Source: Rhodocyclaceae bacterium (GTDB taxonomy: Bacteria > Pseudomonadota > Gammaproteobacteria > Burkholderiales > Rhodocyclaceae). From it: a stretch of DNA of 36,698 nucleotides. The notes beneath the pieces are model-generated. The model saw only the letters and a program-made list of their open reading frames with translations. It ran no database searches and was not told where the DNA came from. The stretch is from NCBI GenBank assembly GCA_025353195.1, contig JANXRC010000122.1, positions 1-36,698 on the forward strand, read 5' to 3'. The number at the start of each line of letters is the position of its first letter. Positions within the stretch are counted from its first letter, which is position 1. The translations under genes and the position numbers were made by a program. This document shows positions 3,718-28,164 of the stretch, piece by piece.

Positions 3718-4350
3718 TCAGCCCGGAAGCTTCGATGCAGTGCGCGGCAGCGACAGGCCGCGGATGACCCCCGCAATACCGCGCCAGAGTTTTGGCAACA
3801 ACCAGACGATCAATGCAATCTGAATAAGAAGCAGGGCCAGCGTCAGCCAGGGGTGGGCGAACATCAGCCACAAGCCGGTGAGGGCCACCAGGTCCTCGCC
3901 GGACGAAGCGGCGATGTTGGTAAATGGCTCGGGCGACGCATTGATCATGGCGCGCGTGCCCGCCTTGGTGAAGTGGGTGCCGGCCGCCAGCGTGCCGCCG
4001 AGCAGCGCCATCGCGGTCTGCCATTCGACACCCTGACCGCCGAACACCATGGCCGCCAACGCCGCGCCGGCCGGAATGCGAATGAAGGTATGCACCGTGT
4101 CCCACACGGAATCGAGCAGCGGGATCTTGTCGGCAAAGAATTCGACGACCAGCATGAGTCCGGCGGCGCCCAGCACCCAGGGATGCTCGAGCAGGCGCAG
4201 CCCCTCCGGCAGGACTATCCAGCCCAGGTTGCCGGCCAGGCCGACGACGAACAGGCTGGTATAAAGGCGAAATCCCGAGGCCCAGCCCAGCCCCGCGGCC
4301 AAGGCCAGGAGCCCGGCAAAGTCCAGCGGCAAATGGGCAAGATCCATCAT
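3718..4350 (-). CDS. DUF4126 domain inner-membrane protein
   Basis: A 210-residue membrane protein with about five or six hydrophobic segments. The opening LALAAGLGWASGFRLYTSLF and the glycine-rich loop VFGGQGVEWQTAMALLGGTLAAGTH are the signature of the DUF4126 family, bacterial membrane proteins with no established function. The start at 4350 is supported by a CGGAG ribosome site five bases upstream; a second ATG follows directly. The gene is divergent from arsS, sharing a 168-base intergenic region. No partner or substrate can be deduced from the sequence. Confidence 0.8.
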   Translation of the reverse strand: MMDLAHLPLDFAGLLALAAGLGWASGFRLYTSLFVVGLAGNLGWIVLPEGLRLLEHPWVLGAAGLMLVVEFFADKIPLLDSVWDTVHTFIRIPAGAALAAMVFGGQGVEWQTAMALLGGTLAAGTHFTKAGTRAMINASPEPFTNIAASSGEDLVALTGLWLMFAHPWLTLALLLIQIALIVWLLPKLWRGIAGVIRGLSLPRTASKLPG

Positions 4351-4518: not shown

Positions 4519-5517
4519 ATGCACGCCACCCTGCACCTGCTCGCCAGCACCGACTTTCCGGCCCTGACGCGACGCGCCGTTGAAACCCTGCAATTGAACC
4601 TCGGCTATCGCTGCAACCAGAGTTGCCTGCACTGCCACGTCAATGCCGGGCCGAATCGCACGGAAGAAATGACCGCCGAAACCGTCGATGCCGTGATCGA
4701 CTTTCTCGCCGCCAGCCCGGAAGTCACCGCAGTCGACCTGACCGGCGGCGCGCCCGAGCTCAACCCGCAGTTCCGGCGGCTGGTGATCGCCGCGCGGGCG
4801 CGTGGCTTGCGCGTCATCGACCGCTGCAACCTGACCATTCTGGAAGAACCGGGCTTCGAAGACATGGCCGCGTTTCTGGCCGGGCACAGGGTCGAGGTCG
4901 TCGCCTCGCTGCCCTGCTATCTGGAGGAAAACGTCGACCGGCAGCGCGGCAAGGGGGTTTTCGAGGCCAGCCTGCGCGGACTGCGGCAGCTCAATGCGCT
5001 GGGCTACGGCCGTGCAGACAGCGGGCTCAGCCTCAACCTGGTCTACAACCCGCAGGGGGCCAGCCTGCCGCCGCCCCAGGTTGCGCTGGAATCCGCCTAC
5101 AAGAAACATCTTGGCGAGAATTTCGGCATCGTCTTCAATCAGCTGTTCACCCTGGCCAACATGCCGATCCAGCGCTTTGGCAGCATGCTGATTTCGAAAG
5201 GCCAGTTCAACGATTACATGGGCACGCTGCGCGAGGCCCACCGCGAAGAGAATCTCGAGCAGGTAATGTGCCGCAGCCTGATCAGCGTCGACTGGCAAGG
5301 CTATCTCTACGACTGCGACTTCAATCAGCAGCTTGGCCTGGCCCTCGCCAACCCGTCAGGTTCGCGCCTGCATATCACCCAAGTCACCGCCGGCCTGCTG
5401 GAAGAGCGGCCGATCCGGGTCGCCGATCACTGCTACGGCTGCACCGCCGGCCAGGGCTCGAGTTGCGGCGGCGCGCTGGGCAATGAAACGGCGCCGGCGC
5501 CGACGTGCGGGAGCTGA
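4519..5517 (+). CDS. arsS: Arsenosugar biosynthesis radical SAM protein ArsS
   Basis: A 332-residue radical SAM enzyme. The CNQSCLHC motif (C32, C36, C39) binds the catalytic [4Fe-4S] cluster; TGGAPE follows as the glycine-rich SAM site. The C-terminal cysteine-rich domain ends with C305, C308 and C316 in a CYGCTAGQGSSCGG motif, typical of ArsS/DUF3641. In characterised ArsS, a 5'-deoxyadenosyl group is joined to dimethylated arsenic, the first committed step to arsenosugars. Some family members are selenoproteins; here the visible positions are cysteine. The ATG at 4519 has a CTGGAGA ribosome site. The 3' end (5491-5504) overlaps a GGCGCC palindrome resembling the intergenic repeats of this window. 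It heads a tight operon with a symporter three bases downstream; no arsM lies nearby. Confidence 0.9.
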   Translation: MHATLHLLASTDFPALTRRAVETLQLNLGYRCNQSCLHCHVNAGPNRTEEMTAETVDAVIDFLAASPEVTAVDLTGGAPELNPQFRRLVIAARARGLRVIDRCNLTILEEPGFEDMAAFLAGHRVEVVASLPCYLEENVDRQRGKGVFEASLRGLRQLNALGYGRADSGLSLNLVYNPQGASLPPPQVALESAYKKHLGENFGIVFNQLFTLANMPIQRFGSMLISKGQFNDYMGTLREAHREENLEQVMCRSLISVDWQGYLYDCDFNQQLGLALANPSGSRLHITQVTAGLLEERPIRVADHCYGCTAGQGSSCGGALGNETAPAPTCGS

Positions 5518-5520
5518 ACC

Positions 5521-6918
5521 ATGAGCGAATTTCAGGGACTGTTCTTCTGGGGCTTCCTGCTGGTCTTCGGCGCCGGGATGTATCTGGTGGCGCCGCGCGC
5601 CACGGATGAGCCCGGCTTTTTCAGCGGCCATGACGCTCAAGGCCGGCCGGCCTCGGAATGGGCGCTGATGATGAGTATTTTCATCAGCTGGATATTCGCC
5701 AAGTCGGTGACCAACGCCGCCAACCTCGGCGCCGCCTACGGTGTCGTCGGCGGGCTGGCCTACGCGGCCTACTGGCTGTCGATTCCGGTGGCGGGTTTGG
5801 TGATCTACCGTTTGCGCACGCGCGAAGGCGCCACGGGTCTGATTCCATTTCTGGTGAGCAAGTACGGCCGCGGCGCGGCGCTGGCTTTTTCGGCCGCGAT
5901 CCTGGTGCGCTTGTTCAACGAAGTCTGGAGCAACACGGCGGTCGTCGGCGGCTATTACGGCGAATCCGGATCGCCCGGCTTCATCGCCGCTGCCTTGCTG
6001 TTCACCGCCGCCGTGCTGTTCTACAGCCTCAAAGGCGGCTTGCGCAGCTCGATCTTCAGTGACGTCATACAGGCGGTGGTGTTCATTCTTTTCGTCGGCG
6101 TCGTGCTGGCCTTCGTCCTGCCGGCCCATGCGCCCCGCGAACTGCTGGCGCAAGGCAGCTTCACCCTCGCCTCCGGCGGCGATCTCCTGCTGGTGGCGCT
6201 GCTGCAGACCGTGTCCTATCCGTTTCACGATCCGGTGCTGACCGACCGCGGTTTCATCACCCGCGAAAAGACCATGCTGCGCGCCTTTATCCTGGCCGGC
6301 GTGCTGGGCTTCATTGCGATTTTTGCGTTCAGCCTGGTCGGCGTGCATGCGCGGCTCGAAGGCATCAGGATCAGCAGCAACGTGCCGGCCGACGTCGCGC
6401 GCGGACTAGGATTTTCAGGTTTCTTTGCGATGATCGTGGTGATGGTTTCGTCGGCCGGTTCGACGCTGGATTCGACCTTCACCTCGCTCTCCAAACTGGT
6501 CGCACGCGAGCTGCCGCTGCTGGCGGGCCGCCTGCCCTCGCCGCGGGCGATGACCATCGGCGCCTTCACCATGATCGTCTTCGCCCTGCTCGGCAACCTG
6601 CCGATGATCGCCGGCACCGACATCCTCAAGGCGACCACGGTCAGCGGCACCATGGTGATCGGCCTGGCTCCGATCTTTCTGTTCTCGCACCGGGTTCGCT
6701 ATTCCCCGCTGTCATTTCACCTCGCGTTCTGGACCGGGATGACGCTGGGCGTGTTGCAGCTGATGGATCTGGTCCCGCCAAGCTGGGCCATCGGCGGCGG
6801 CAAATACGGCATCCTGCTCGGCACCAATCTGTACGGCCTGCTGCTCTGCACGGCGGGATTCTTCGTGCCGCTGCTGGTGCCGCGCACGCGACTGTCGTCG
6901 GCATCGGGCGCGGCATGA
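5521..6918 (+). CDS. Sodium:solute symporter family protein
   Basis: A 465-residue membrane protein with about twelve to thirteen hydrophobic segments, matching the SSS (sodium:solute symporter) family in length and pattern. Visible family features are SWIFAKSVTNAANLGAAYG early, the YSLKGGLRSSIFSDVIQ loop, which is the best-conserved SSS stretch, and SSAGSTLDSTFTSLSK later, where Na+-coordinating serines usually lie. The substrate cannot be read from the sequence. The start has a GGGAG ribosome site and lies three bases after the arsS stop, in the same reading frame; the next gene overlaps its stop codon by ATGA. Operon context suggests transport of an organoarsenical or of a precursor, which is inference only. 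Confidence 0.85.
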   Translation: MSEFQGLFFWGFLLVFGAGMYLVAPRATDEPGFFSGHDAQGRPASEWALMMSIFISWIFAKSVTNAANLGAAYGVVGGLAYAAYWLSIPVAGLVIYRLRTREGATGLIPFLVSKYGRGAALAFSAAILVRLFNEVWSNTAVVGGYYGESGSPGFIAAALLFTAAVLFYSLKGGLRSSIFSDVIQAVVFILFVGVVLAFVLPAHAPRELLAQGSFTLASGGDLLLVALLQTVSYPFHDPVLTDRGFITREKTMLRAFILAGVLGFIAIFAFSLVGVHARLEGIRISSNVPADVARGLGFSGFFAMIVVMVSSAGSTLDSTFTSLSKLVARELPLLAGRLPSPRAMTIGAFTMIVFALLGNLPMIAGTDILKATTVSGTMVIGLAPIFLFSHRVRYSPLSFHLAFWTGMTLGVLQLMDLVPPSWAIGGGKYGILLGTNLYGLLLCTAGFFVPLLVPRTRLSSASGAA

Positions 6919-7868
6919 GCGCAGCCGGCCGCGTGTGTCCGACCCGCTACCGCTACGGCGCGGAGGCGATTGCCGATGCGCCGGAGCGTGCGGCGCAGAC
7001 CTTGTATGTGATCGGCGGCCTCTACGGCAACCTGCCCGCGCTCGATGCGATCGAGGCAATGGCCCGGGCCGAGCCGGGGCCGGTCGAATTGTGTTTCAAC
7101 GGCGACTTCAACTGGTTCAACGTGGATGATGCCGGCTTCCGCGCGATCAACCAGCGCGTGCTGCAGCACAGCGTCATCGTCGGCAACGTCGAGGCCGAGC
7201 TGGGCACAGATTCGAACGACGCCGGCTGCGGCTGCGCCTATCCGGATGCGGTGGATGACGGCATCGTCGAGCGCTCGAACCGGATTCACGCCGCGCTCAA
7301 GCGGACCGCCACACGGCATCCCGATCTGCTCGCCCGCCTGCAGGAGTCGGCGCTGGTGGCACGGTGGCGAGTCGGCCGGCTGCGCATCGGAGTGGTGCAC
7401 GGCGATGCCGATTCGCTCGCCGGCTGGCGGTTCGACCCCGACCGCCTCGATGATCCCGCGGAACGTGAATGGCAGGCGGCAGCCTTTGCGAGGGCCGAGG
7501 TCGACGTCTTTGCCAGCACCCATACCTGCCTGCCCGCGATGCGCTGCTTCGACCATCACGGGGAAAAGTTGATCGCCAACAACGGCGCGGCCGGCATGCC
7601 CAACTTTGCCGGCACCCGTTTCGGCATCCTGACCCGGATCGGACTGCAGGCGTCGCCCCATGCCGCGCTCTACGGCCACGCCCTGCAGGACGTGCACGTC
7701 GATGCGCTGGCGATCCGCTACGATCCTGCGGCGTGGGAGGCCGGCTTCCTGCGCAACTGGCCCGCCGGATCGCCTGCCTGGCAATCCTACTTCGAGCGCA
7801 TCACCCACGGCCCGGACTACACCCGACAGCAGGCCTTTGCCGGTAGCTCCCTGCTCACCGTATCCTGA
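6915..7868 (+). CDS. Metallophosphoesterase-like protein with lost metal ligands
   Basis: A 317-residue soluble protein whose ATG overlaps the symporter stop (ATGA). Its order of blocks follows calcineurin-like phosphoesterases: a first strand ending in GGLYGNLPALDAI, then CFNGDFNWFN, VGNVEAEL, VVHGDAD and FASTHTCLP. In active enzymes the first block is DxHGN and the third GNHE; here the D and H are replaced (G35-L36-Y37) and the H of GNH is V92. The GD (G63-D64) is kept. A GCGCAYP motif near residue 110 and ERSNRI after it are unusual. If the alignment is right, a normal two-metal site cannot form, so it may bind a ligand without hydrolysis or use different chemistry. Tight coupling to arsS and the symporter suggests a shared pathway. 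Confidence 0.6.
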   Translation: MSAAGRVCPTRYRYGAEAIADAPERAAQTLYVIGGLYGNLPALDAIEAMARAEPGPVELCFNGDFNWFNVDDAGFRAINQRVLQHSVIVGNVEAELGTDSNDAGCGCAYPDAVDDGIVERSNRIHAALKRTATRHPDLLARLQESALVARWRVGRLRIGVVHGDADSLAGWRFDPDRLDDPAEREWQAAAFARAEVDVFASTHTCLPAMRCFDHHGEKLIANNGAAGMPNFAGTRFGILTRIGLQASPHAALYGHALQDVHVDALAIRYDPAAWEAGFLRNWPAGSPAWQSYFERITHGPDYTRQQAFAGSSLLTVS

Positions 7869-7888
7869 TCACCCTGCAAGGACAGAAC

Positions 7889-8575
7889 ATGCCAAGCAAT
7901 TACCTGACCGATATCGACGCCTGCGTCTTCGATGCCTATGGCACGCTGTTCGACTTCAACACTGCGGCCAGCGCCGCCCGGGATGAATTGGGCGACGACT
8001 GGCAGCGCCTCTCCGACCTGTGGCGCCTGAAGCAACTTCAATACACCTGGCTGCGCGGCTTGGCGCACCAGCACGCCGACTTCTGGCAGGTCACCGGCGA
8101 CGCGCTGGATTTTGCCCTTGCCGCCTTGCGCGTCGAGCGGCCGGGCCTGCACGCGCGCCTGATGAAGCTTTACCTCGAGCTCGGCACCTATCCCGAAGTG
8201 CCGGCCATGCTGCGCGAGCTGAAGGCCCGCGGCATGAAGCTCGCCATTTTGTCCAACGGCACGCCGGCCATGCTTGCGGCGGTGGTCACCAACTCGGGAC
8301 TGGACGGCGTCTTCGATGCCGTGCTTTCGGTCGAGGACGTGGGCGTCTACAAGCCGCATCCGTCAGTGTATGACCTGGCGGCGAAGCGCCTGAAACTCGA
8401 ACCGTCGCGTATCTGCTTCCTGTCATCGAACGGCTGGGACGCCTACTCGGCCAAGGCCTTCGGCTTTCGCGTGATCTGGTGCAACCGCTTCGCGCAGGTG
8501 CCCGAACGGATACCGGCTACGCCCGACGGCGAGATCGCCGATCTTGCGGCGCTGCCGGCCATGCTCAATCAGTAG
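7889..8575 (+). CDS. (S)-2-haloacid dehalogenase, type II (HAD superfamily)
   Basis: A 228-residue HAD-superfamily enzyme that hydrolyses L-2-haloacids to D-2-hydroxyacids. Every residue known to be essential in L-DEX of Pseudomonas sp. YL has its counterpart with constant spacing: nucleophile D15 and T19 in FDAYGTLFD, R46 in the WRLKQLQYTW block, S122 and N123 in LSNG, K155 and Y161, and S179, N181, D184 in SSNGWDA. This supports a working dehalogenase-type active site rather than a generic HAD phosphatase. It starts 20 bases after the phosphoesterase-like gene with a CAAGGACAG ribosome site, so it is probably the last gene of the arsS operon. The natural substrate could be another 2-substituted carboxylic acid. 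A GC-rich hairpin follows at 8617-8636. Confidence 0.88.
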   Translation: MPSNYLTDIDACVFDAYGTLFDFNTAASAARDELGDDWQRLSDLWRLKQLQYTWLRGLAHQHADFWQVTGDALDFALAALRVERPGLHARLMKLYLELGTYPEVPAMLRELKARGMKLAILSNGTPAMLAAVVTNSGLDGVFDAVLSVEDVGVYKPHPSVYDLAAKRLKLEPSRICFLSSNGWDAYSAKAFGFRVIWCNRFAQVPERIPATPDGEIADLAALPAMLNQ

Positions 8576-8670: not shown

Positions 8671-8729
8671 AGAAAAATATTCCTCGGCGAGAAGCCGACT
8701 TGAAACCGGGACAACCAGAGGAGAACACC

Positions 8730-10040
8730 ATGAATTTCAAGACGCTCGCCGCCGCATTGTTTACCCTCGGCGTTCTCGCCGCTCCGGCTGCTCAAGCCGT
8801 GACCGAAATCCAGTGGTGGCATTCGATGGGGGGCGCGCTCGGCGAGGCGCTCAACGGACTTGCCAACAAGTTCAACGAAAGCCAGCAGGACTACAAGGTC
8901 GTCCCCGTCTACAAGGGGCAGTACCCCGAGTCGATGACAGCCGCGATCGCCGCTTTCCGCGCCGGCAACGCGCCGCACATTCTGCAGGTGTTCGAGGTCG
9001 GCACCGCAACCATGATGGCGGCCAAGGGCGCGATCGTGCCGGTGGCCAAGGTGATGACGGACGCCAAGGAACCGTTCGATCCGAAGGCCTACCTGCCGAC
9101 CGTGACGGGCTATTACTCGGACCTCAAGGGCAACATGCTTTCCTTCCCCTTCAACAGCTCGACGGTGATGTTCTACATCAACAAGGATGCCTTCAGGAAG
9201 GCGGGCCTGGAGCCTGTTGCGCCGAAGACCTGGAAGGAGTTCCTCGCCGACGCCGAGAAGCTGAAGGCGGCCGGCCAGCAGTGCGTCTATACCACCAGCT
9301 GGCCATCCTGGATGCATGTCGAGAACTTCAGCGCCTGGCATAACATTCCGATCGGCACCAAGCAGAACGGCATGGGCGGCCTCGACACGGAATTCACGAT
9401 CAATTCGCCGCTGCAAGTGCGCCACATCGCGATGCTGGGCGACATGGCGAAGAAGGGCCTGTTCACCTACGCCGGACGCACCAACCAGGGCGACGCCAAG
9501 TTCTACAGCGGCGAGTGCGCCATGTTCAGCGGCAGCGCAGGTGCGCAGGCGGGCATCAAGAAGGCGGCCAAGTTCGAATGGTCGATCAATTTCATCCCGT
9601 ATTACGACGACGTGAAGGGTGCGCCGCAGAACTCGATCATCGGCGGCGCTTCGCTCTGGGTGATGGGCGGCAAGAAGCCGATCGAGTACAAGGGCGTGGC
9701 CAAGTTCCTGGCCTTCCTGTCGGAACCCAAGATCCAGATGGAATGGCACACCACCACGGGCTACGTGCCGATCACCCAGGCCTCCTACGAGCTGACGCGA
9801 GCAACCGGCTTCTACGAGAAGAACCCCGGCGCCGACATGCCGGTGAAGCAGCTCACCAACAAGCCGCCGACCGCGAATTCGAAGGGCCTGCGCTTCGGCA
9901 ACTACGTGCAGGGCCGCGAGGTGATCGAGGAGGAGCTGGAGGCCGTGTTCGCGGGCAAGAAGGACGCCCAGACGGCGTTGAACGACGCGGTAAAGCGGGG
10001 CAACGAGATCCTGCGCAAGTTCCAGGCGGCGAACAAGTAG
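8730..10040 (+). CDS. ugpB: Glycerol-3-phosphate ABC transporter, periplasmic binding protein UgpB
   Basis: A 436-residue periplasmic solute-binding protein. The first 22-23 residues form a signal peptide (MNFKTLAAALFTLGVLAAPA, cut after AQA). The mature protein begins VTEIQWWHSMGG, the characteristic start of UgpB, and continues with NKFNESQQDYKVVPVYKG and GAVPVAKVM-like blocks seen across UgpB proteins. It captures sn-glycerol-3-phosphate or glycerophosphodiesters and passes them to UgpAE. An AGAGGAGA ribosome site precedes the ATG at 8730; a TTG further upstream in frame would spoil the signal peptide. It is the first gene of ugpBAEC, followed by ugpA after 27 bases. Confidence 0.93.
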   Translation: MNFKTLAAALFTLGVLAAPAAQAVTEIQWWHSMGGALGEALNGLANKFNESQQDYKVVPVYKGQYPESMTAAIAAFRAGNAPHILQVFEVGTATMMAAKGAIVPVAKVMTDAKEPFDPKAYLPTVTGYYSDLKGNMLSFPFNSSTVMFYINKDAFRKAGLEPVAPKTWKEFLADAEKLKAAGQQCVYTTSWPSWMHVENFSAWHNIPIGTKQNGMGGLDTEFTINSPLQVRHIAMLGDMAKKGLFTYAGRTNQGDAKFYSGECAMFSGSAGAQAGIKKAAKFEWSINFIPYYDDVKGAPQNSIIGGASLWVMGGKKPIEYKGVAKFLAFLSEPKIQMEWHTTTGYVPITQASYELTRATGFYEKNPGADMPVKQLTNKPPTANSKGLRFGNYVQGREVIEEELEAVFAGKKDAQTALNDAVKRGNEILRKFQAANK

Positions 10041-10067
10041 CTAGTAACATCGGTCACGCCGAACGGG

Positions 10068-10949
10068 ATGGAAAAGCGCGTCGTCTTCCGCTCGGCGTGG
10101 CTGCCCTACGCGCTGCTGGCGCCGCAGCTCGCCATCACGGTGGTGTTCTTCTTCTGGCCGGCGGGACAGGCGGTCTGGTACTCCTTCCAGTTGCAGGATG
10201 CGTTCGGCCTGCACAGCGAATTCGTCTGGTTCGAAAACTTCACGGCGCTGTTCGCCGATCCTCACTACCTGGAGTCCTTCAAGACCACGGCGGTGTTCAG
10301 CGTGGCCGTGGCCGGCCTCGGCATTTCGATCTCGCTGCTGCTCGCCACCATGGCCGACCGGGTGGTGCGCGGCGCCCTCGTTTACAAGACCATCCTGATC
10401 TGGCCCTACGCAGTGGCGGCGGCGGTCGCCGGAGTGCTGTGGGCGTTCCTGTTCGCGCCGTCCATCGGCATCGTCACCTACGTGCTGAAAGGCTTCGGCG
10501 TCGACTGGAACTGGATCATCAAGGGCGACCAGGCGATGCTGCTGATCATCATCGCATCGGTGTGGAAGCAGATCAGCTACAACTTCCTGTTCTTTCTCGC
10601 CGGGCTGCAGTCGATCCCGAAATCCCTCATCGAGGCGGCGGCGATCGACGGTGCGGGACCGGCCCGGCGCTTCTGGACCATCGTGCTGCCGCTGCTGTCG
10701 CCGACCGCCTTCTTCCTGCTGGTGGTCAACATCGTCTATGCGTTCTTCGACACCTTCGGCGTGATCGACGCCACCACGATGGGCGGGCCGGCACAGGCGA
10801 CGCAGATCCTTGTGTACAAGGTTTACCACGACGGCATCAAGTCGGCCGACATCGGCGGCTCGTCGGCGCAATCGGTGATCCTGATGATCATCGTCATCGC
10901 GTTGACGGCCGCGCAATTCAAATACATCGAGCGCAAGGTGCAGTACTGA
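10068..10949 (+). CDS. ugpA: Glycerol-3-phosphate ABC transporter permease UgpA
   Basis: A 293-residue inner-membrane permease with six predicted membrane segments. The N-terminal block [21 protein letters not shown] and the cytoplasmic EAA loop ([25 protein letters not shown], near residue 185-210) that docks onto the ATPase are typical of UgpA in the MalF/UgpA permease group. It pairs with UgpE to form the channel. The ribosome site is weak. It lies between ugpB and ugpE, with ten bases before the ugpE start. Family and operon position agree, so the assignment is firm. Confidence 0.93.
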
Positions 10950-10959
10950 TGGGCGTCCC

Positions 10960-11808
10960 ATGGTAGAGAAGCGGCCACTGCTCGACTTCGTCACGCACGC
11001 GGTTCTGATCGTCGGTGCCTTCGTCATTGCCTTCCCGCTTTACGTGACCTTCGTCGCGTCCACGCTGTCGCTCGACGAGATCATGTCGGTGCCGATGCCG
11101 CTGCTGCCGGGCAGCCATTTCGTCGAAAACTATTCCCAAGTGCTGTTCGCCGGGTCGACCGGCGGCTCGCGGGCGGCGGTACTGGACATGCTGTTCAACA
11201 GCATGGTGATGGCCCTGGCGGTGCCGCTGGGCAAGATCAGCATCTCGATTCTCTCCTCGTTCGCCATCGTCTATTTCCGCTTCCCGCTGCGCAATTTCCT
11301 TTTCTGGACGATCTTCGTCACCTTGATGCTGCCGGTCGAGGTGCGCATCATCCCGACCTTCAAGGTCATGGCCGACCTCGGCCTGCTCAATACCTATGCC
11401 GGCCTGACGCTGCCGCTGATCGCCTCGGCGACCGCAACCTTCCTCTTCCGCCAGTTCTTCATGACCATTCCGGACGAGCTGGCCGAGGCGGCCCGCATCG
11501 ACGGCGCCGGGCCGATGCGCTTCTTCTGGGACGTGGTGGTGCCGCTGTCCAAGACCACCATGGCGGCGCTTTTCGTCATCCAGTTCATCTACGGCTGGAA
11601 CCAGTACCTGTGGCCACTGCTCATCACCAGCGATGAATCCATGTACACGGTGGTGATCGGCATCAAGCGCATGATCACCGGCGGCGATGCGGCCAACGAG
11701 TGGAACCTCATCATGGCGACCGCCGTGCTGGCCATGCTGCCACCGGCGGCAGTGGTGCTGCTGATGCAAAAATGGTTCGTCAAGGGACTCGTGGAAACCG
11801 AGAAATGA
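10960..11808 (+). CDS. ugpE: Glycerol-3-phosphate ABC transporter permease UgpE
   Basis: A 282-residue inner-membrane permease with six predicted membrane segments. It has the UgpE-like opening [19 protein letters not shown], the [15 protein letters not shown] stretch, and the EAA loop [20 protein letters not shown] that contacts the UgpC ATPase. The gene starts 10 bases after ugpA. An ATG overlapping the ugpA stop is out of frame and closes after five codons, so the ATG at 10960 is the start. Like UgpA it lacks any extra domain. Confidence 0.93.
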
Positions 11809-11818
11809 GCAAACGATA

Positions 11819-12829
<1,011 letters not shown>

Positions 12830-12863
12830 GTTGCAGGCACCCCGTTGGCGCCGCCGATCGAGC

Positions 12864-14147: not shown

Positions 14148-14181
14148 TTGCCGCTCCGCTGCCGCGCCTTCCGTGCGCCGC

Positions 14182-15762: not shown

Positions 15763-15765
15763 GGA

Positions 15766-17037: not shown

Positions 17038-17103
17038 GATCTCGTTGTCCGCTACCTGTCTCGGGCATGCCGCCGCATCGCCTGCGAAGTATGACGCAAG
17101 CGT

Positions 17104-21802: not shown

Positions 21803-22402
21803 TCAAGCCCCCGCTCCGGCAAACCATTTCGTTTCGAGACAGGTGCGCAGGCCCAGTCGGGCGCGGTGCAGCACCACCCAGCAATTGGACGAACTGATGC
21901 CGGTTTCCTTACAAATTTCGTCGGTCTCGAAGCCGAGGAATTCACGCATCATGAAAACGCGAGCGGTCTTGCCGGGCAGATGGTCGAGGCAGGCCTCGAA
22001 CACCCGCCAGAATTGCTGCTGCTCGAAGGAAGCCTCCGGATCAGCCCAGCGCCCGGGCTGTGTGGCCGGCTGCCAGTGGCCGCGCCGGTCAAACAGCGAC
22101 TCGGCGAGCAGGTCGTCGCCAGCCTCGTCGTCGGCCAGCGAGGTCGCCGCAATTTCGCGGCTCTGGCCGCGAATGATGTCGATGATCTTGTTGCGCAGGA
22201 TCGAAATCAGCCAGGTCTTGTAGGATGATCGACTTTCGAAGCGATGGCTGCCGAGCAGCGCCGCCAGCAGGGTTTCCTGCACTGCGTCTTCGGCAGCGCC
22301 CGCATCGCGCAGCTGCAGGCGGGCGAAACGCAGCAGGTCGGGGCGTAGCGTTTCCAACTCGGCGTTGAGTTCGGCTTGGCGATCCAATTCCATGGAACGC
22401 AT
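21803..22402 (-). CDS. ECF RNA polymerase sigma factor
   Basis: A 199-residue ECF sigma factor. Region 2 is seen in LRPDLLRFARLQLRDAGAAE, the DAVQETLLAAL core-binding helix and SYKTWLISILRNKIID; region 4 in LPGKTARVFMMREFLGFETD and the recognition helix around GISSSNCWVVLHRAR. The sequence fits the group named TIGR02943 (sigma-70 family) common in beta/gammaproteobacteria. ATG at 22402 or 22393 are both possible. It heads a minus-strand operon with its anti-sigma factor and a CWC protein, and is divergent, with 88 bases between, from the msrB-led operon, which it plausibly controls. No clear ECF -35/-10 pair was identified in that spacer. Confidence 0.88.
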   Translation of the reverse strand: MRSMELDRQAELNAELETLRPDLLRFARLQLRDAGAAEDAVQETLLAALLGSHRFESRSSYKTWLISILRNKIIDIIRGQSREIAATSLADDEAGDDLLAESLFDRRGHWQPATQPGRWADPEASFEQQQFWRVFEACLDHLPGKTARVFMMREFLGFETDEICKETGISSSNCWVVLHRARLGLRTCLETKWFAGAGA

Positions 22403-22490: not shown

Positions 22491-22991
22491 ATGAACCGTC
22501 GCAACTGGATTTCAAGCGTTTCCGGCCTGATGGCCGCGTTCTCTTTACCCGCGGGCCCTGCCCGCGCCGCCAGCGCCTTTCCGCTGACCAAGAGCAAACA
22601 GGACTGGAAAGCGCTGCTGCCGGCAGACGCCTACCGCGTACTTTTCGAACACGACACGGAACCGGCCGGCAGCAGTGCGCTGAATGCGGAAAAGCGCGCC
22701 GGCACGTTTATTTGCGCCGCCTGCAATCAGCCGCTGTTCGACAGTGCCCACAAGTACGAAAGCGGCACCGGCTGGCCCAGCTTCTGGCAGCCGCTGGCCG
22801 GCGCGGTCGGCACGTCGACCGACTTCGGACTGATCTACCCGCGCACCGAGTATCACTGCTCGCATTGCGGCGGGCATCAGGGTCACGTCTTCAACGATGG
22901 CCCGCAACCCACGGGAAAGCGCTACTGCAATAATGGCGTCGCCCTGAAGTTCATTGCGAAAACCGAAACCTTGCCGGCACTGCGGACATGA
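22491..22991 (+). CDS. msrB: Peptide methionine-(R)-S-oxide reductase MsrB, exported
   Basis: A 166-residue MsrB with an N-terminal export signal (about 27 residues, MNRRNWISS start, AxA cut near ARAAS). The paired arginines followed by N-W resemble a Tat signal, but a Sec route is possible. The enzyme reduces methionine-R-sulfoxide. Zinc ligands are the CAAC and CSHC pairs; SGTGWPSFW and the catalytic C146 in RYCNNG are intact. An AGGAGAG ribosome site precedes the ATG. The stop overlaps msrA (ATGA). Both Msr enzymes being exported points to repair of periplasmic proteins, as for MsrP/PilB systems. Confidence 0.92.
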   Translation: MNRRNWISSVSGLMAAFSLPAGPARAASAFPLTKSKQDWKALLPADAYRVLFEHDTEPAGSSALNAEKRAGTFICAACNQPLFDSAHKYESGTGWPSFWQPLAGAVGTSTDFGLIYPRTEYHCSHCGGHQGHVFNDGPQPTGKRYCNNGVALKFIAKTETLPALRT

Positions 22992-23605
22992 GCCCATTCC
23001 TGAAGATGATTCTCGTCGTAGGCACCATCCTTGCGACTGCTGCTCACGCGGAGGCGCCGGCCGCCCCGGCTGTCGTGCCTGCCGGCAGCGCCACGGCGAT
23101 CTTCGCCGGCGGCTGTTTCTGGTGCGTCGAAAGCGACTTCGAAAAACTCCCCGGGGTCATCGAAGTCGAGTCGGGCTATACCGGCGGCAGGACCGCCAAC
23201 CCGAGCTACGAGCAGGTCAGTTCGGGCAGCACCGGACACGCCGAAGCGGTGCGGGTGATCTACGATCCGAAGAAGGTCAGCTACCCGCAATTGCTCGACT
23301 ACTTCTGGCGGCATATCGATCCCACCGTGAAGGATCGACAGTTCTGCGACGTCGGCAACCAATACCGCAGCGCCATCTACTGGCAGAACGAAGCCGAGCA
23401 CAAGGCCGCCGAAGCGAGCCGCGACGCATTGCTGAAGAGCGGCAAGTTCAAGGCGATCCATACCGAGCTGGCTCCGGCGACGGCCTTCTGGCTGGCCGAG
23501 ACCTACCATCAGGACTACTACAAGAAGAACCCGATCCGCTACGCCTATTATCGCAAGAGCTGCGGCCGGGACGCGCGGGTCGAAGAAGTCTGGAGCGGCA
23601 AGTAA
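22988..23605 (+). CDS. msrA: Peptide methionine-(S)-S-oxide reductase MsrA, exported
   Basis: A 205-residue MsrA with a cleavable Sec signal (first 21 residues, ending AAHA). The catalytic motif GCFWC places the sulfenic-acid cysteine at C43; the substrate-pocket stretches SGYTGG and the AEAVRVIYDPKKVSY block are conserved, and ETYHQDYYKKNP near the end is typical. A resolving cysteine may be C-terminal (SCGRD). It is translated by overlap with msrB and lies six bases before the next gene, so it belongs to the same operon. Confidence 0.92.
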   Translation: MSPFLKMILVVGTILATAAHAEAPAAPAVVPAGSATAIFAGGCFWCVESDFEKLPGVIEVESGYTGGRTANPSYEQVSSGSTGHAEAVRVIYDPKKVSYPQLLDYFWRHIDPTVKDRQFCDVGNQYRSAIYWQNEAEHKAAEASRDALLKSGKFKAIHTELAPATAFWLAETYHQDYYKKNPIRYAYYRKSCGRDARVEEVWSGK

Positions 23606-23611
23606 GGTCCG

Positions 23612-25756
23612 ATGAAGCACCAACGCCTGATCCTGCTGGTTGCGGTGCTTGCCGCCATCGCGGCCTTCATCGCTCTCGATCTGGGCCGCTTCCTGAGCCT
23701 CGAGTACTTCAAGAGCCAGCAGGCGGCGATAGAGAACTGGCGCGCGGCACAGCCGGCCATGGCAGCGTTGGCATTCTTCATCGCCTATGTCGCCGTCACC
23801 GGCCTGTCGCTGCCCGGGGCCGCGGTGATGACGCTGGCCGCGGGGGCGATTTTCGGTTTGCTGTGGGGCACGGTCCTGGTGTCCTTCGCGTCCAGCGCCG
23901 GTGCCACACTGGCCTTCCTCGCCTCGCGCTTCCTGCTGCGGGACTGGGTGCAGGAGCGCTTCGGCGAGCGCCTGCGAGTAATCAATCTCGGCGTCGAGAA
24001 GGAAGGTGGCTTCTATCTGTTCACCCTGCGACTGGTGCCGGTGTTTCCCTTCTTCATGATCAACCTGTTGATGGGCCTGACGCCGATTCGCACCCGCACC
24101 TTCTACTGGGTCAGCCAGGTCGGCATGCTCGCCGGCACGCTGGTGTACGTGAATGCCGGAACCCAACTCGCAGGCATAAACAGCCTGATGGGCATCCTGT
24201 CGCCGGCGCTGATTGCCTCCTTCGCCCTGCTCGGCGTCTTTCCGCTGATCGCGAAGAAGATCGTCGATGCGATCAAGGCGCATCAGGTCTACGCCGGCTG
24301 GACCCGGCCGCGACGTTTCGAGCGCAACCTGATCGTTATCGGCGGCGGCAGCGCCGGGCTGGTTACCGCCTACATCGCCGCCGCGGTGCAAGCCAAAGTG
24401 ACGCTGATCGAGAAGCACCAGCTCGGCGGCGACTGCCTCAACACGGGGTGCGTGCCGTCCAAGGCGCTGATCCGTACCGCCAGGCTGCTGTCGCATATTT
24501 CGCGGGCGCAGGAGTTTGGTTGCCGTAGCGCCAGCGCCGACTTCTCGTTCGCCGAGGTGATGGAGCGGGTGCAGCGCGTGATTCATGCCGTGGAGCCGCA
24601 CGATTCAGTGGAGCGCTATAGCGGACTCGGCGTCGAGGTGATCGCGGGCAGCGCGAAGATGCTTTCGCCCTGGGAGGTGGAGGTGATCGGCAACGATGGC
24701 CACCGCCAGTGCCTCACTACCCGCAGCATAGTAATTGCGGCCGGGGCGCGGCCCTTTGTGCCGCCCATCCCCGGAATCGAAGAAGTCGGCTATCTGACCT
24801 CCGATACGGTCTGGGCCCTGCGCGAATTGCCGCGGCGACTGGTCGTGCTCGGCGGCGGCCCGATCGGCGCGGAACTGACGCAGGCTTTTTCGAGGCTGGG
24901 CGCCAAAGTCACCCAAGTTGAAATGCTGCCGCGCCTGATGATGCGCGAAGACCCCGAGGCTTCCGCCCTCGTCACGCAGAGATTCCGCAATGAGGGCATC
25001 ACGGTGCTGCTCGAGCACCGCGCCAAACAGTTCGTGATCGAAAACGGCGAGAAGATACTGATCGCCGAGCATAAAGGCGTGGACCTCCGCATTCCCTTCG
25101 ATGCCGTGCTGGTTGCCGTCGGCCGCGTAGCCAATCTCAAGGGCTACGGACTGGAGGAACTGGGCATCGCCGCCGATCGCACCGTCGAGACCAACGAGTT
25201 CCTGCAAACGAAATATCCCAACATCTACGCCGCCGGAGATGTCGCCGGACCCTACCAGTTCACCCATACCGCCGCGCATCAGGCCTGGTATGCGGCGGTC
25301 AATGCCTTGTTCGATCCTTTCAGGAAGTTCCGCGCCGACTATTCGGTGATCCCCTGGGCCACCTTTGTCGAACCCGAGGTCGCGCGCGTCGGCCTCAACG
25401 AAAGCGAGGCGAAGGAGCGCGGCATTGCGCACGAGATCACGATCTACGCCATGGACGACCTGGATCGCGCGATCGCCGACGGCGAGGCGCACGGCTTCGT
25501 CAAGGTATTGACCGTGCCCGGCAAGGACCGGATTCTCGGCGTCACCATCGTCGGCGAACATGCCGCCGACCTGATTGCCGAATATGTCCTGGCAATGCGG
25601 CACGGCATCGGGCTGAACAAGATCCTGGGCACCATCCACATCTACCCGACCATGGCCGAAGCCAACAAGTACGCCGCCGGCGCTTGGAAGAAAGCCCACG
25701 CCCCGCGGAAGCTGCTGGAGTGGGTGGGCCGTTTTCACGCCTGGCGGCGGGGATGA
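23612..25756 (+). CDS. VTT (TVP38/TMEM64) membrane domain fused to mercuric-reductase-like flavoenzyme
   Basis: A 714-residue fusion. Residues 1-230 hold about five or six hydrophobic segments with the GAAVMTLAAGAIFGLLWGT and LVPVFPFFMINLLMGL blocks of the VTT/TVP38 domain. From about residue 237 it is a pyridine nucleotide-disulfide oxidoreductase: FAD motif VIGGGSAGL, redox pair C275 and C280 in CLNTGCVPSK, NAD(P) motif VLGGGPIGAEL, the AAGDVAG FAD site and the C-terminal dimer domain ending HIYPTMAEANKYA. It lacks the vicinal C-terminal cysteine pair that MerA uses to bind mercury and has no N-terminal metal domain, so mercury reduction is doubtful. Similar fusions are known in other bacteria. 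The stop overlaps the next glycosyltransferase (ATGA). Confidence 0.88.
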   Translation: MKHQRLILLVAVLAAIAAFIALDLGRFLSLEYFKSQQAAIENWRAAQPAMAALAFFIAYVAVTGLSLPGAAVMTLAAGAIFGLLWGTVLVSFASSAGATLAFLASRFLLRDWVQERFGERLRVINLGVEKEGGFYLFTLRLVPVFPFFMINLLMGLTPIRTRTFYWVSQVGMLAGTLVYVNAGTQLAGINSLMGILSPALIASFALLGVFPLIAKKIVDAIKAHQVYAGWTRPRRFERNLIVIGGGSAGLVTAYIAAAVQAKVTLIEKHQLGGDCLNTGCVPSKALIRTARLLSHISRAQEFGCRSASADFSFAEVMERVQRVIHAVEPHDSVERYSGLGVEVIAGSAKMLSPWEVEVIGNDGHRQCLTTRSIVIAAGARPFVPPIPGIEEVGYLTSDTVWALRELPRRLVVLGGGPIGAELTQAFSRLGAKVTQVEMLPRLMMREDPEASALVTQRFRNEGITVLLEHRAKQFVIENGEKILIAEHKGVDLRIPFDAVLVAVGRVANLKGYGLEELGIAADRTVETNEFLQTKYPNIYAAGDVAGPYQFTHTAAHQAWYAAVNALFDPFRKFRADYSVIPWATFVEPEVARVGLNESEAKERGIAHEITIYAMDDLDRAIADGEAHGFVKVLTVPGKDRILGVTIVGEHAADLIAEYVLAMRHGIGLNKILGTIHIYPTMAEANKYAAGAWKKAHAPRKLLEWVGRFHAWRRG

Positions 25757-26448
25757 AACCCGGGATCTCCATCATCATGCCGGTGCTCGACGAAGCGCCG
25801 CAGATCGCCGAGCGGCTGAAACCGCTGCAGGCCATGCGGGCGAAGGGAGCGGAACTGATCGTGGTGGATGGTGGCAGCGCGGATGGCACGGCCGCTATGG
25901 CGGAGGCCCTGGCCGATCGTGTCCTCGCCTCGCCGCGTGGCCGGGCGAGGCAGATGAATGCCGGGGCCGCCGCCAGCAAGGGCCGGGTAATGCTGTTCCT
26001 GCATGCCGACACCACGCTGCCGGAAACGGCTGTGCAAGCCATACTGGCTGCCGTCGACGCAGGTGCGTCATGGGGACGCTTCGATGTGCGCATCGATGGC
26101 TACCACCCCTTGCTGCGCATCATCGAGCGCATGATGAACTGGCGCTCTCGTCTGACCGGTATCGCCACCGGCGACCAGGCGATTTTTGTGCGACGGGAGG
26201 TGTTCGACGCCGTGGGCGGCTATGCCGATCTGCCGCTGATGGAGGACATCGCCTTGTCCACCGCACTGCACCGCCTGGCGACGCCTGCCTGTCTGCGCGA
26301 AACCGTCGTCACGTCCGGGCGACGCTGGGAACAACACGGTGTGCTGCGCACCATGCTGCTGATGTGGTGGCTGCGCGCCGCCTTTTTCCTTGGGGCCGAT
26401 CCGGCACGCCTGGCACTGCGCTATGGATACTCGCCGCGTGCCTCCTGA
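25753..26448 (+). CDS. TIGR04283-type glycosyltransferase (arsenosugar-biosynthesis family)
   Basis: A 231-residue GT2-fold enzyme. The nucleotide-sugar site is seen in ISIIMPVLDEA and VDGGSADGT; GRARQMNAGA and FLHADTTLP (with the DxD-like HAD) are the hallmark of the TIGR04283 family, which is named for genomic association with arsenosugar synthesis. A late MEDIALS block is the likely acceptor-side catalytic element. One or two short hydrophobic stretches near the C-terminus (LLMWWLRAAFFLG) may touch the membrane. The ATG overlaps the stop of the VTT fusion and the next gene starts inside this one. Acceptor and donor are unknown. Confidence 0.85.
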   Translation: MKPGISIIMPVLDEAPQIAERLKPLQAMRAKGAELIVVDGGSADGTAAMAEALADRVLASPRGRARQMNAGAAASKGRVMLFLHADTTLPETAVQAILAAVDAGASWGRFDVRIDGYHPLLRIIERMMNWRSRLTGIATGDQAIFVRREVFDAVGGYADLPLMEDIALSTALHRLATPACLRETVVTSGRRWEQHGVLRTMLLMWWLRAAFFLGADPARLALRYGYSPRAS

Positions 26449-27064
26449 GCGCATCGGGATCGCGGTCATGGCCAAGGCTCCCGAGGCCGGCTACGCCAAG
26501 ACGCGGCTGATTCCGGCGCTGAGCGCCAAGGCCGCTGCACGCCTGCACCGGCAACTGACCCTGAGGACCCTGAGCACCGCCGTCGCCGCCGACGTAGGCC
26601 CGGTCACCCTCTGGTGCGCGCCCGACACCCGTCACCGGTTTTTCCGCGCCCTGCAGCAACGTTGCGGCCTCGTTCTGCGCCCCCAGCCCGACGTCGATCT
26701 GGGTCGGCGCATGGCTCACGCATTTGCCGAGAACGACGGACAGCCGCTGCTGCTGATCGGCACCGACTGCCCCGCCCTGTGCGCCGGACATCTGCAGCAG
26801 GCCGCACGGGCCCTGCGTTCAGCGGTCGATGCAGTATTCATCACGGCAGAGGACGGCGGCTACTTTCTGGTGGGGCTGAAGCGGCCTTGTCCCGAACTGT
26901 TTCGGGGCATCGACTGGAGTACCGGCTGCGTCATGGCGCAGACCCGCGGCCGCCTGTCGGAGCTGGGCCTGCGCTGGCAGGAGGTGGCAACGCTTTGGGA
27001 CGTCGATCGCGCCGAGGACGTGTTGCGCTGGAAGTCCTTGCAGCAAGAGGAATCCTGCCGGTGA
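26423..27064 (+). CDS. TIGR04282-type glycosyltransferase (arsenosugar-biosynthesis family)
   Basis: A 213-residue protein with the fold of nucleotidyl/glycosyl transferases (DUF2064). It has MAKAPEAGYAKTRLIPAL, LLIGTDCPAL and AEDGGYFLVGL, the defining blocks of the TIGR04282 family. These proteins nearly always sit beside a TIGR04283 gene, as here. The start at 26423 overlaps the previous gene by 26 bases; a GTG at 26438 is an alternative. The stop overlaps the GTG of the following flavoprotein gene (GTGA). The role in arsenosugar glycosylation is a family-level inference, not shown biochemically for this protein. Confidence 0.85.
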   Translation: MDTRRVPPERIGIAVMAKAPEAGYAKTRLIPALSAKAAARLHRQLTLRTLSTAVAADVGPVTLWCAPDTRHRFFRALQQRCGLVLRPQPDVDLGRRMAHAFAENDGQPLLLIGTDCPALCAGHLQQAARALRSAVDAVFITAEDGGYFLVGLKRPCPELFRGIDWSTGCVMAQTRGRLSELGLRWQEVATLWDVDRAEDVLRWKSLQQEESCR

Positions 27065-28164
27065 CGCGACTGGTCCTGATCGGCGGCGGACATGCCCATG
27101 TGCATGTGCTGGCAGCACTTGCAACCGCTCCGTTTGCCAATGCTCAGGTGACACTGGTATCGCCGTATGCGCGCCAGATCTACTCGGGAATGCTGCCCGG
27201 CTGGATAGAGGGTTATTACGCGATTGAAGATTGTGCCCTGGCGCTGGATTCGATGGCGCGGCGCGCCGGTGTCAGGTTTGTGCAAACGTCATGCACCGCG
27301 CTGGATCTCACGGCGAGGCGGGTGCTCTGTGCGAATGGCGACGCCATTTCGTTTGACTATGCGTCGATTGATGCCGGCCCCGCGGCCAATCTCGGGGGAC
27401 TGACCGGTGTCCCGCAGCACGGACTACCGATCCGCCCCATCGAAAGTTTCGTCGCTGCCTGGCCCGGTTTGCTGGAACGAGCGCGGCAGGGCGAGTTCAA
27501 GCTGGCAATAGTCGGCGATGGCGCAGCGGCGATCGAACTGGCCTTTGCCATGCAGGCCCGCCTCGCGACGGAAGGGCTGAACCACGCCTGCCTGACGGTT
27601 GTCGGCGGCAATCGCGAACCCTTGGCCGGCTTTCCGTTTCTGCTGCGCCACAAGGCAGCAAAGCTGCTCGCCGCACAAGGCATCGCGCACCTGGGCAAGC
27701 GGCGCGCGGTCGCCCTGCTGGCGGATCATGTGCAGCTTGACGACGGTTCGCAGCTGGCCGCCGACGCCGCACTGATCGCCACCGGCGCTGCGGCACCACC
27801 ATGGCCGGCCGCCAGCGGCCTGGAGACGGACGAAGCAGGTTTCATCCGGGTCAACCCGATGCTGCAGAGCGTCTCCCATCCTTCGGTATTTGCCGCCGGC
27901 GATGTCGCTGCCTATGCGGATGCGCGGCCCAAATCCGGAGTGTTCGCCGTGCGTGCCGGTCCGCCGCTGGCGGAGAATCTGCGTGCGATATGCCAGGGGC
28001 AAGCCCTGAAACAATGGCAGCCGCAGCAACGTGCGCTGTATCTGCTCAGCACCGGCCACAAGCATGCGCTGGCAGCATGGGGCGGCTTCAGCGCCTCCGG
28101 CGCCTGGGTATGGCGCTGGAAGGACCGGATCGACCGTCGCTTCATGGCGCGGTTTGGTGCCTGA
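27061..28164 (+). CDS. FAD/NAD(P) oxidoreductase of the TIGR03169 (SelD-associated) type
   Basis: A 367-residue flavoprotein related to NADH dehydrogenase II. It starts with TRLVLIGGGHAHVHVLAAL, the signature opening of the group TIGR03169, usually found fused to the N-terminus of selenide-water dikinase SelD. YSGMLPGWIEGYYA, a second dinucleotide motif AIVGDGAAAIELAFA and the FAAGDVA motif near residue 280 follow in order. No SelD domain or gene follows, so this is the stand-alone form. No redox-active cysteine pair is seen, so electrons probably go from NAD(P)H through FAD to a quinone or small acceptor. The GTG start is fixed by overlap with the preceding stop. It ends the msrB-led operon. 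Confidence 0.8.
   Translation: MTRLVLIGGGHAHVHVLAALATAPFANAQVTLVSPYARQIYSGMLPGWIEGYYAIEDCALALDSMARRAGVRFVQTSCTALDLTARRVLCANGDAISFDYASIDAGPAANLGGLTGVPQHGLPIRPIESFVAAWPGLLERARQGEFKLAIVGDGAAAIELAFAMQARLATEGLNHACLTVVGGNREPLAGFPFLLRHKAAKLLAAQGIAHLGKRRAVALLADHVQLDDGSQLAADAALIATGAAAPPWPAASGLETDEAGFIRVNPMLQSVSHPSVFAAGDVAAYADARPKSGVFAVRAGPPLAENLRAICQGQALKQWQPQQRALYLLSTGHKHALAAWGGFSASGAWVWRWKDRIDRRFMARFGA

Follow-up and report, generated by a model that had tools for sequence, protein, structure and literature searches.

How could a bacterium supply the arsenosugar enzyme ArsS with its substrate when arsM is missing? The known route uses ArsM to methylate arsenite, after which ArsS attaches a 5'-deoxyadenosyl group. 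The question is raised by contig JANXRC010000122.1 of a Rhodocyclaceae bacterium (assembly GCA_025353195.1), where arsS is packed with the genes of a transporter, a metallophosphoesterase-fold protein (MPE) and a haloacid dehalogenase-like protein (HAD). The window analysed here is the whole 36.7-kb contig (36,698 nucleotides), and its source genome is 3.4 Mb long and 99% complete. Our reading, to which we give a probability of roughly 45%, is that this is an arsenosugar-type locus in which the step providing the ArsS substrate has been exchanged: an import-and-entry module in place of ArsM would feed an imported methylated arsenical to ArsS. The locus itself is real and recurrent, and it is a new variant of the arsenosugar locus that is under-described as far as our searches show. 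The four genes are the following:

4519..5517, plus strand: arsS, radical SAM enzyme (TIGR04167, DUF3641), 459.5 bits against a cut-off of 300, with the cluster motif CNQSCLHC (CX3CX2C)
5521..6918, plus strand: sodium:solute symporter (SSS)-like transporter, matching PF00474
6915..7868, plus strand: MPE, a protein of predicted metallophosphoesterase fold, overlapping the symporter gene by 4 bases
7889..8575, plus strand: type II HAD, L-2-haloacid dehalogenase-like, with a D-x-Y nucleophile motif, TIGR01428 217.5 bits against a cut-off of 125.4, best PDB matches 2no4 and 1jud

These open reading frames (ORFs), their positions and the gaps of 3, -4 and 20 bases between them agree with the original prediction, which was made from the window's letters. 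That prediction ended the locus at 8575; the four genes do lie at 4519-8575, but further genes of the locus follow at about 21.8-28.2 kb. The assignment of ArsS is secure by family model and cluster motif, the alignment to TIGR04167 spanning model positions 2-303 of 303 and the C-terminal DUF3641 domain being present (PF12345, 188.2 bits). Transfer of the 5'-deoxyadenosyl group to trivalent dimethylarsenic, DMA(III), is its predicted reaction. The symporter is very divergent: it barely exceeds the gathering score of PF00474 (23.2 vs 22.8 bits), stays below the TIGR00813 cut-off (29.3 vs 184) and has no PDB match. In line with the prediction, no arsM was found. The window gives no match to the ArsM, DUF547, DUF3047 or PhnD of other loci, and in the genome NF008823 found no ArsM at E<=1e-20 (scores being taken for 8 of the 18 first-look candidates), while a cluster ArsM gave a single match of 20.6 bits and 26%. 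The genome does encode Acr3, and elsewhere a methylthioadenosine (MTA) phosphorylase homologue just under the cut-off (267.1 of 274.85).

Do these genes belong together in other genomes? We searched an order sample of 300 genomes and a phylum sample of 398. Relatives of MPE were found in 49 order genomes (including G179, with a weak partial match, and G010, G102, G212 and G241, with partial or split ones) and ArsS over its cut-off in 93. ArsS is present in 48 of the 49 MPE genomes (Fisher p 2.6e-28, the species not being independent). Both genes share a contig in 36 genomes, lying at most 12 kb apart in 35 and at most 2.4 kb apart in 31, and in all those 35 MPE is downstream of ArsS on the same strand. 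The symporter occurs in 8 order genomes (E<=1e-30), each time with MPE directly downstream. In the phylum sample MPE was found in 7 genomes, counting that of the window; ArsS is over its cut-off in two of the other six, and the symporter adjoins MPE in all four neighbourhoods fetched from the five MPE genomes outside the order.

We also compared the best 80 of at least 477 confirmed MPE relatives in a collection scan, a set that therefore leans to close kin. Presence in a locus was decided by tblastn thresholds (ArsS above 150 bits, MPE and ArsM above 100, others above 60); some fetched neighbourhoods end at contig ends and the ORF calls are crude. Within 3.5 kb upstream of MPE there is the symporter in 34 loci, an HtxB-like ABC transporter in 25, both in none and neither in 21. 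ArsS lies within 53 of the 80 loci, upstream on the same strand in 52, and wherever the title tells, the loci are Beta- or Gammaproteobacterial. In L036, L037, L041, L044 and L055-L058, MPE is separated from ArsS on the stretch that was fetched, in most cases accompanied by HtxB-like ABC genes. The complete order ArsS-symporter-MPE-HAD on one strand was found in only 5 of the 80 loci (L144, L164, L166, L178 and L204). What recurs across Beta- and Gammaproteobacteria is the transporter-MPE unit, mostly with ArsS. Furthermore, the codon for Cys8 of MPE follows the symporter stop within 27 nucleotides in 39 of 41 loci, which suggests that the two genes may be translationally coupled. Chance neighbourhood of the four genes is rejected by the co-occurrence of MPE and ArsS, the symporter always beside MPE, the recurring order and the symporter-MPE spacing.

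What, then, does the module replace? For every one of the 95 other ArsS matches in the order sample we fetched the surroundings (within 109 loci, L035-L143). MPE is present in 33 and ArsM in 12, and both in none (hypergeometric 0.004 if the loci were independent). A second measure gave the same picture: ArsM model matches of at least 150 bits number 11 within 12 kb of ArsS and none within 12 kb of MPE. MPE and ArsM are mutually exclusive at the locus level, and the transporters are swapped as well: the symporter (7 loci) and the PhnD-like protein (5 loci) occur only in MPE-bearing loci, and a PiT/CysP-like permease occurs in 8 of the 95, all with ArsM and none with MPE (for example L076, 14396-16530). 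The remaining genes are shared. The TVP38 fusion, the GT2 glycosyltransferase and DUF2064 are found in 31, 27 and 23 of the 33 MPE loci, and in 11, 11 and 11 of the 12 ArsM loci. Of 189 loci, 11 have an MTA-phosphorylase homologue (6 of them with MPE, 5 with ArsM), as would be expected if both kinds of locus made a 5'-deoxyadenosyl adduct. The original prediction of a variant arsenosugar route without arsM gains from the recurrence of the transporter-MPE unit, mostly with ArsS, and from TIGR04283 and TIGR04282 in the same window.

The exchange can also be followed between relatives. On a quick-method ArsS tree of 96 rows, the label for MPE switches 19 times and that for ArsM 9 times. In genus g79, L035 (MPE and symporter, 9.6 kb after ArsS) is sister to L078 (ArsM) with an SH-aLRT of 100; the L035 genome has no ArsM at E<=1e-20 and that of L078 no MPE match. 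In G020, of the window's own family, the ArsM match begins 21 bases after the ArsS match and there is no MPE match.

The missing ArsM gene, with a transporter and a four-cysteine protein apparently in its place, suggests that these bacteria import ready-methylated arsenic instead of producing it. The gene order, its recurrence, the locus-level exclusion between MPE and ArsM, the transporter swap, the predicted fold and the residue pattern come directly from the analysis; we infer the direction of transport, the arsenic substrate and every MPE and HAD reaction in what follows. The symporter, or elsewhere the HtxB-like ABC system, would import a pre-formed methylated arsenic oxyanion (methylarsonate or dimethylarsinate), which MPE would convert to the trivalent, thiol-bound form used by ArsS. 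The oxyanion would sit at the remaining metal site of MPE, and the arsenic would be reduced or bound by the four invariant cysteines. ArsS would then adenosylate the trivalent arsenical, an MTA-phosphorylase-like enzyme would remove adenine in some loci, and the TIGR04282 and TIGR04283 proteins together with the oxidoreductases would finish the sugar.

Could MPE play this part? No Pfam or NCBIfam model recognises the window MPE, even with E relaxed to 10, and the MPE alignment used as a profile gave no match among PDB sequences. Its AlphaFold2 model (58-row alignment, pLDDT 93.9, pTM 0.92) matches metallophosphoesterases, with 3qfm at a Foldseek E of 1.5e-11 and 19% identity, and PF12850 is matched at E<=1 by 18 of 58 members (best 5.2e-6). 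A metallophosphoesterase fold is therefore predicted. We aligned the MPE profile to two ordinary metallophosphoesterases of the same genome; hhalign gives low probabilities (37% and 6%), although the motifs fall into register. D-x-H has become G35-x-Y37, GD is kept as GD64, GNHD reads GN91-V92-E93, the single H is H162, and GHTH reads T-H203-T-C205. Taking the two-metal ligand set to be D-x-H, GD, GNH, H and GHxH, with the M1 and M2 numbering that we assume, the complete set is absent: the M1 ligands are gone (G35, Y37, C205) and those of M2 are kept (D64, N91, H162, H203). The "phosphoesterase fold lacking its usual metal ligands" of the original prediction was therefore correct for M1 and too broad for M2. 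C205 stands at one of the lost M1 positions. Every row of two alignments (44 of 44 and 58 of 58) has C8, C105, C107 and C205, which a Burkholderia glumae plasmid homologue keeps as well. The metal or thiol site thus appears to have been rebuilt. A plain dead phosphoesterase is disfavoured, because one ligand set is kept and the four cysteines are invariant.

A bolder version of our reading is that the MPE family is a new enzyme type, with an M1 site rebuilt with cysteines. An arsenic (or phosphorus) oxyanion held by its metal would then be reduced to a trivalent, thiol-bound species and handed to ArsS. Together with the interchangeable SSS and HtxB-like importers it would form a dedicated route from environmental methylated arsenicals to arsenosugars, as a substitute for ArsM. 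We regard this version as doubtful, with the odds clearly against it. Such a substitute was not found named in our searches of Pfam, NCBIfam and the literature: 'ArsS' and 'arsenosugar' are absent from the main text of a survey of arsenic genes in Burkholderiales (PMC3954881), and passages of PMC13077682 give an annotation list only.

Regarding the transporters, PhnD/HtxB-type ABC systems import. The symporter more likely imports too, since its slot elsewhere holds such a binding-protein, uptake-type ABC system; the proposal that it moves a methylated arsenic acid or a sugar product was changed to import for that reason. For the ABC binding protein (L036) the nearest relative is HtxB (E 2.7e-52), and the same PDB result includes the arsenic-related relatives AioX and ArrX. 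In 31 of 31 loci the pocket keeps W52, R178 and D206 of HtxB and replaces N128 by Ser and F158 by His (residue numbers counted by hand on the alignment). This mixture of HtxB and PtxB residues predicts an oxyanion with a non-oxygen substituent, which might be phosphite or, by shape, methylarsonate or dimethylarsinate. According to passages of PMC5700983, the Ser and His found here are PtxB-like residues that touch phosphite's third oxygen, PtxB bound methylphosphonate at 30-41 uM, and a 'hybrid' class of binding proteins exists. The literature gives one hint of arsenic: in Pelagibacter, as stated in parts of PMC6426599, dimethylated arsenic (DMA) raised phnD expression 2-fold, though none of the DMA-responsive genes described there was clearly tied to arsenic metabolism.

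Transporter and MPE might instead act late, exporting or recycling the arsenosugar or its phosphate, with MPE cleaving a sugar-phosphate or nucleotide intermediate as a one-metal phosphodiesterase. Arsenosugars do occur with glycerophosphate aglycones, and the metallophosphoesterase fold, the kept M2 ligands and the Ap4A hydrolase/phosphodiesterase as nearest relative would suit such a step. A shared late step does not explain, however, why none of the 95 ArsS loci holds both ArsM and MPE and why both transporters go only with MPE; furthermore, PhnD/HtxB-type systems import, as passages of PMC5700983 bear out for HtxB. We consider this alternative unlikely, although it stands first among those we weighed.

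Several observations weigh against the import of a methylated arsenical. MPE is more than 2.4 kb from ArsS in 18 of the 49 MPE genomes (in 13 of them on a different contig or with no ArsS), and ArsS is below its cut-off in 4 of the 6 phylum-sample MPE genomes. Exclusion is weaker at the genome level, ArsM of at least 150 bits being found in 8 of 48 genomes with ArsS and MPE vs 17 of 45 with ArsS but no MPE (p 0.034). Moreover, 50 of the 95 ArsS loci have neither MPE nor ArsM, and MTA phosphorylase is limited to the 11 loci mentioned. In the gammaproteobacterial locus L236, from one of the four phylum-sample genomes with ArsS below its cut-off, another radical SAM protein (5700-6662; best model NF049973, 101.6 of 380 bits) takes the ArsS slot, between the TVP38 fusion and symporter-MPE. 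Finally, the known ligands of HtxB and PtxB are reduced phosphorus compounds, and passages of PMC5700983 report no binding of methylphosphonate by HtxB up to 10 mM; this makes a methylated oxyanion less likely unless the altered pocket can accept one.

Some of these points fit a module for reduced phosphorus, in which phosphite, hypophosphite or a phosphonate would be imported and ArsS (or its replacement) would join the 5'-deoxyadenosyl group to phosphorus, giving a C-P analogue of an arsenosugar. The binding protein is nearest to HtxB, its pocket resembles the 'hybrid' class in PMC5700983 as far as that class is described in the passages concerned, and a different radical SAM enzyme can occupy the ArsS slot. 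The downstream genes, however, are largely those of ArsM loci, and the exclusion of ArsM by MPE makes sense for arsenic. We rate this possibility as low, next in order after a late step.

Is the HAD part of the route? The window protein keeps all ten catalytic positions of L-2-haloacid dehalogenases (the list is the one we presume to be correct) and passes TIGR01428, so the dehalogenase with all catalytic residues that had been predicted is borne out. A type II HAD lies within 2 kb downstream of MPE in 16 of the 80 loci, 10 of them on the same strand. Four of these (L144, L145, L170 and L210), and also the HAD of L235, are of the window type with all ten residues. A second group (12 loci, the HAD sharing the MPE strand in 6 and converging with MPE in the other 6) differs at 4 of the 10 positions, and its member in L152 lacks the N-terminus. 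Among the five loci with the complete order, the HAD is of the window type in L144 and of the second type in L164, L166, L178 and L204. NCBIfam scores were taken for five of the 16; each passes TIGR01428, with a small margin in the second group (126.7-132.6 against a cut-off of 125.4). HAD phosphatases carry a second aspartate (D-x-D); a sugar phosphatase is disfavoured, this residue being Tyr in the window type and Gly in the second group.

By its residues the HAD is read as an accessory carbon-heteroatom hydrolase, hardly a core member because it is seen in only 16 of the 80 MPE loci. In our reading of an imported arsenical it would be optional and might free dimethylarsinous acid from carboxymethylated arsenicals; its release from dimethylarsinoylacetate is a chemical guess. 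The enzyme type would be compatible with hydrolysis of a 2-substituted acetate, which the original prediction made a core step, with the symporter moving a methylated arsenic acid or sugar product. The ten positions kept in the HADs of the window and of the five loci of its type, the D-x-Y in place of the phosphatase D-x-D and the second subgroup downstream of MPE in 12 more loci favour this version; no HAD is seen within 2 kb downstream in 64 of the 80 loci (some ending at contig ends), and the second subgroup departs at 4 of the 10 positions. The HAD is therefore disfavoured as a core pathway member, and we hold the version as a whole to be improbable, below the phosphorus module.

What finishes the sugar would be encoded in the second half of the locus:

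21803..22402, minus strand: ECF sigma factor (TIGR02943), 260.3 bits, cut-off 162.2
22491..22991, plus strand: MsrB-like protein, named from sequence only
22988..23605, plus strand: MsrA, TIGR00401 200.9 bits, cut-off 108.1
23612..25756, plus strand: TVP38/TMEM64 - FAD disulfide oxidoreductase fusion, 72% identity to the fusion of ArsS locus L040
25753..26448, plus strand: TIGR04283 arsenosugar biosynthesis glycosyltransferase, 279 bits, cut-off 182
26390..27064, plus strand: TIGR04282 arsenosugar biosynthesis transferase (DUF2064), start uncertain, 196 bits, cut-off 134
27061..28164, plus strand: TIGR03169 pyridine nucleotide-disulfide oxidoreductase, 386.4 bits, cut-off 310

In a genome search the sole over-cut-off match to TIGR04283 was in the same window as ArsS. 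The TVP38 fusion stays under its NCBIfam cut-offs (best NF004991, 503 of 620 bits), and VTT and Pyr_redox domains are present in a homologue. A gene related to the ECF gene is found in 33 of 189 fetched loci. Some names would suggest selenium as the element handled by ArsS and its partners: the model name rSAM_SeCys, the SelD-related oxidoreductase models nearby and the older name 'selenodomain-associated transferase'. However, the alternative partner is ArsM-like, and characterised ArsS acts on arsenic, as cited in passages of PMC12159101 and PMC8552651; we think selenium very improbable.

The halves are separated by ugpBAEC on the plus strand and glpB, glpA, a GlpC/HdrD-like gene, a HAD-IIB gene and glpD on the minus strand (window 8700-19430), and by a GGDEF-type ORF. 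In L144 and L145, the near relatives with enough flank, the halves are closer and no ugp or glp genes lie between them. From HAD to TIGR04283 only sigma-like and MsrA-like ORFs stand out in L144, and GGDEF-type and sigma-like ORFs are found in L145 (the GGDEF-type, sigma-like and MsrA-like names all taken from sequence); the TVP38 fusion has no match in either locus. The arsenosugar locus thus seems to have received the glycerol-3-phosphate block later, by insertion. The ugp and glp genes are disfavoured as functional partners, since they are not between the halves in L144 and L145 and since the MPE-HAD-ugpBAEC arrangement recurs in L210 alone among the 80 MPE loci.

Elsewhere in the window, a small membrane protein gene (3718-4350, DUF4126-like) is divergent from arsS, and consecutive ORFs at 29669-34393 resemble TolC, a membrane fusion protein, an ABC ATPase and a MacB-like permease; these names too come from sequence only.

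Relatives of MPE are also encoded on plasmids. At least 48 plasmid records match, 47 of them from Burkholderia, and among the matches listed all 19 distinct records are B. glumae, some of whose plasmids come from diseased rice. On p79s4p (L244), MPE, annotated as 'hypothetical protein', follows arsS, and the region also holds TIGR04282, TIGR04283, MTA phosphorylase, an ECF sigma factor, CcdA, a thioredoxin-family protein and DUF547. Tn3/IS21 elements lie near this locus.

To our knowledge, the steps of arsenosugar synthesis beyond ArsS are largely open. The locus type supplies candidate genes, open to testing, for what happens before and after ArsS. It also points to a way in which methylated arsenicals may be taken up and enter the pathway where ArsM is absent, as in Accumulibacter, Competibacter and Denitromonas relatives (presumably wastewater inhabitants) and the B. 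glumae plasmids, and it flags a protein family with a putatively rebuilt active site that is annotated only as 'hypothetical protein' on those plasmids.

Compared with the ArsM-ArsS arsenosugar pathway reportedly found in Synechocystis (Xue 2019 and Cheng 2021, as cited in PMC8552651 and PMC12159101), the window has an ArsS over the family cut-off and the two families, TIGR04282 and TIGR04283, that NCBI names for arsenosugar biosynthesis; it differs in having no ArsM match, a transporter and MPE instead, an accessory HAD and the glycerol-3-phosphate interruption. MPE resembles metallophosphoesterases (3qfm/3qfn SapH Ap4A hydrolase, 1nnw, 3rqz, 2gju; PF12850) in its predicted fold and in D64, N91, H162 and H203, and departs from them by the changes of D-x-H to G-x-Y, GNH to GNV and GHTH to THTC and by its four invariant cysteines. 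The HtxB/PtxB hypophosphite/phosphite importers are the likeness of the module's alternative transporter (25 of 80 loci), whereas Ser in place of N128 and His in place of F158 (31 of 31) set it apart from HtxB, and the window has the symporter in that slot and no PhnD-like match. The window HAD shares the ten positions and D-x-Y with L-2-haloacid dehalogenases (1jud, 2no4), dehalogenation being predicted, but its genomic partner is an arsenosugar locus. Finally, the arsQML arsinothricin cluster, as presented in passages of PMC8552651, likewise combines a transporter with a radical SAM enzyme forming a C-As bond; there, ArsL transfers a 3-amino-3-carboxypropyl group, ArsM is kept and the transporter is GntP-related.

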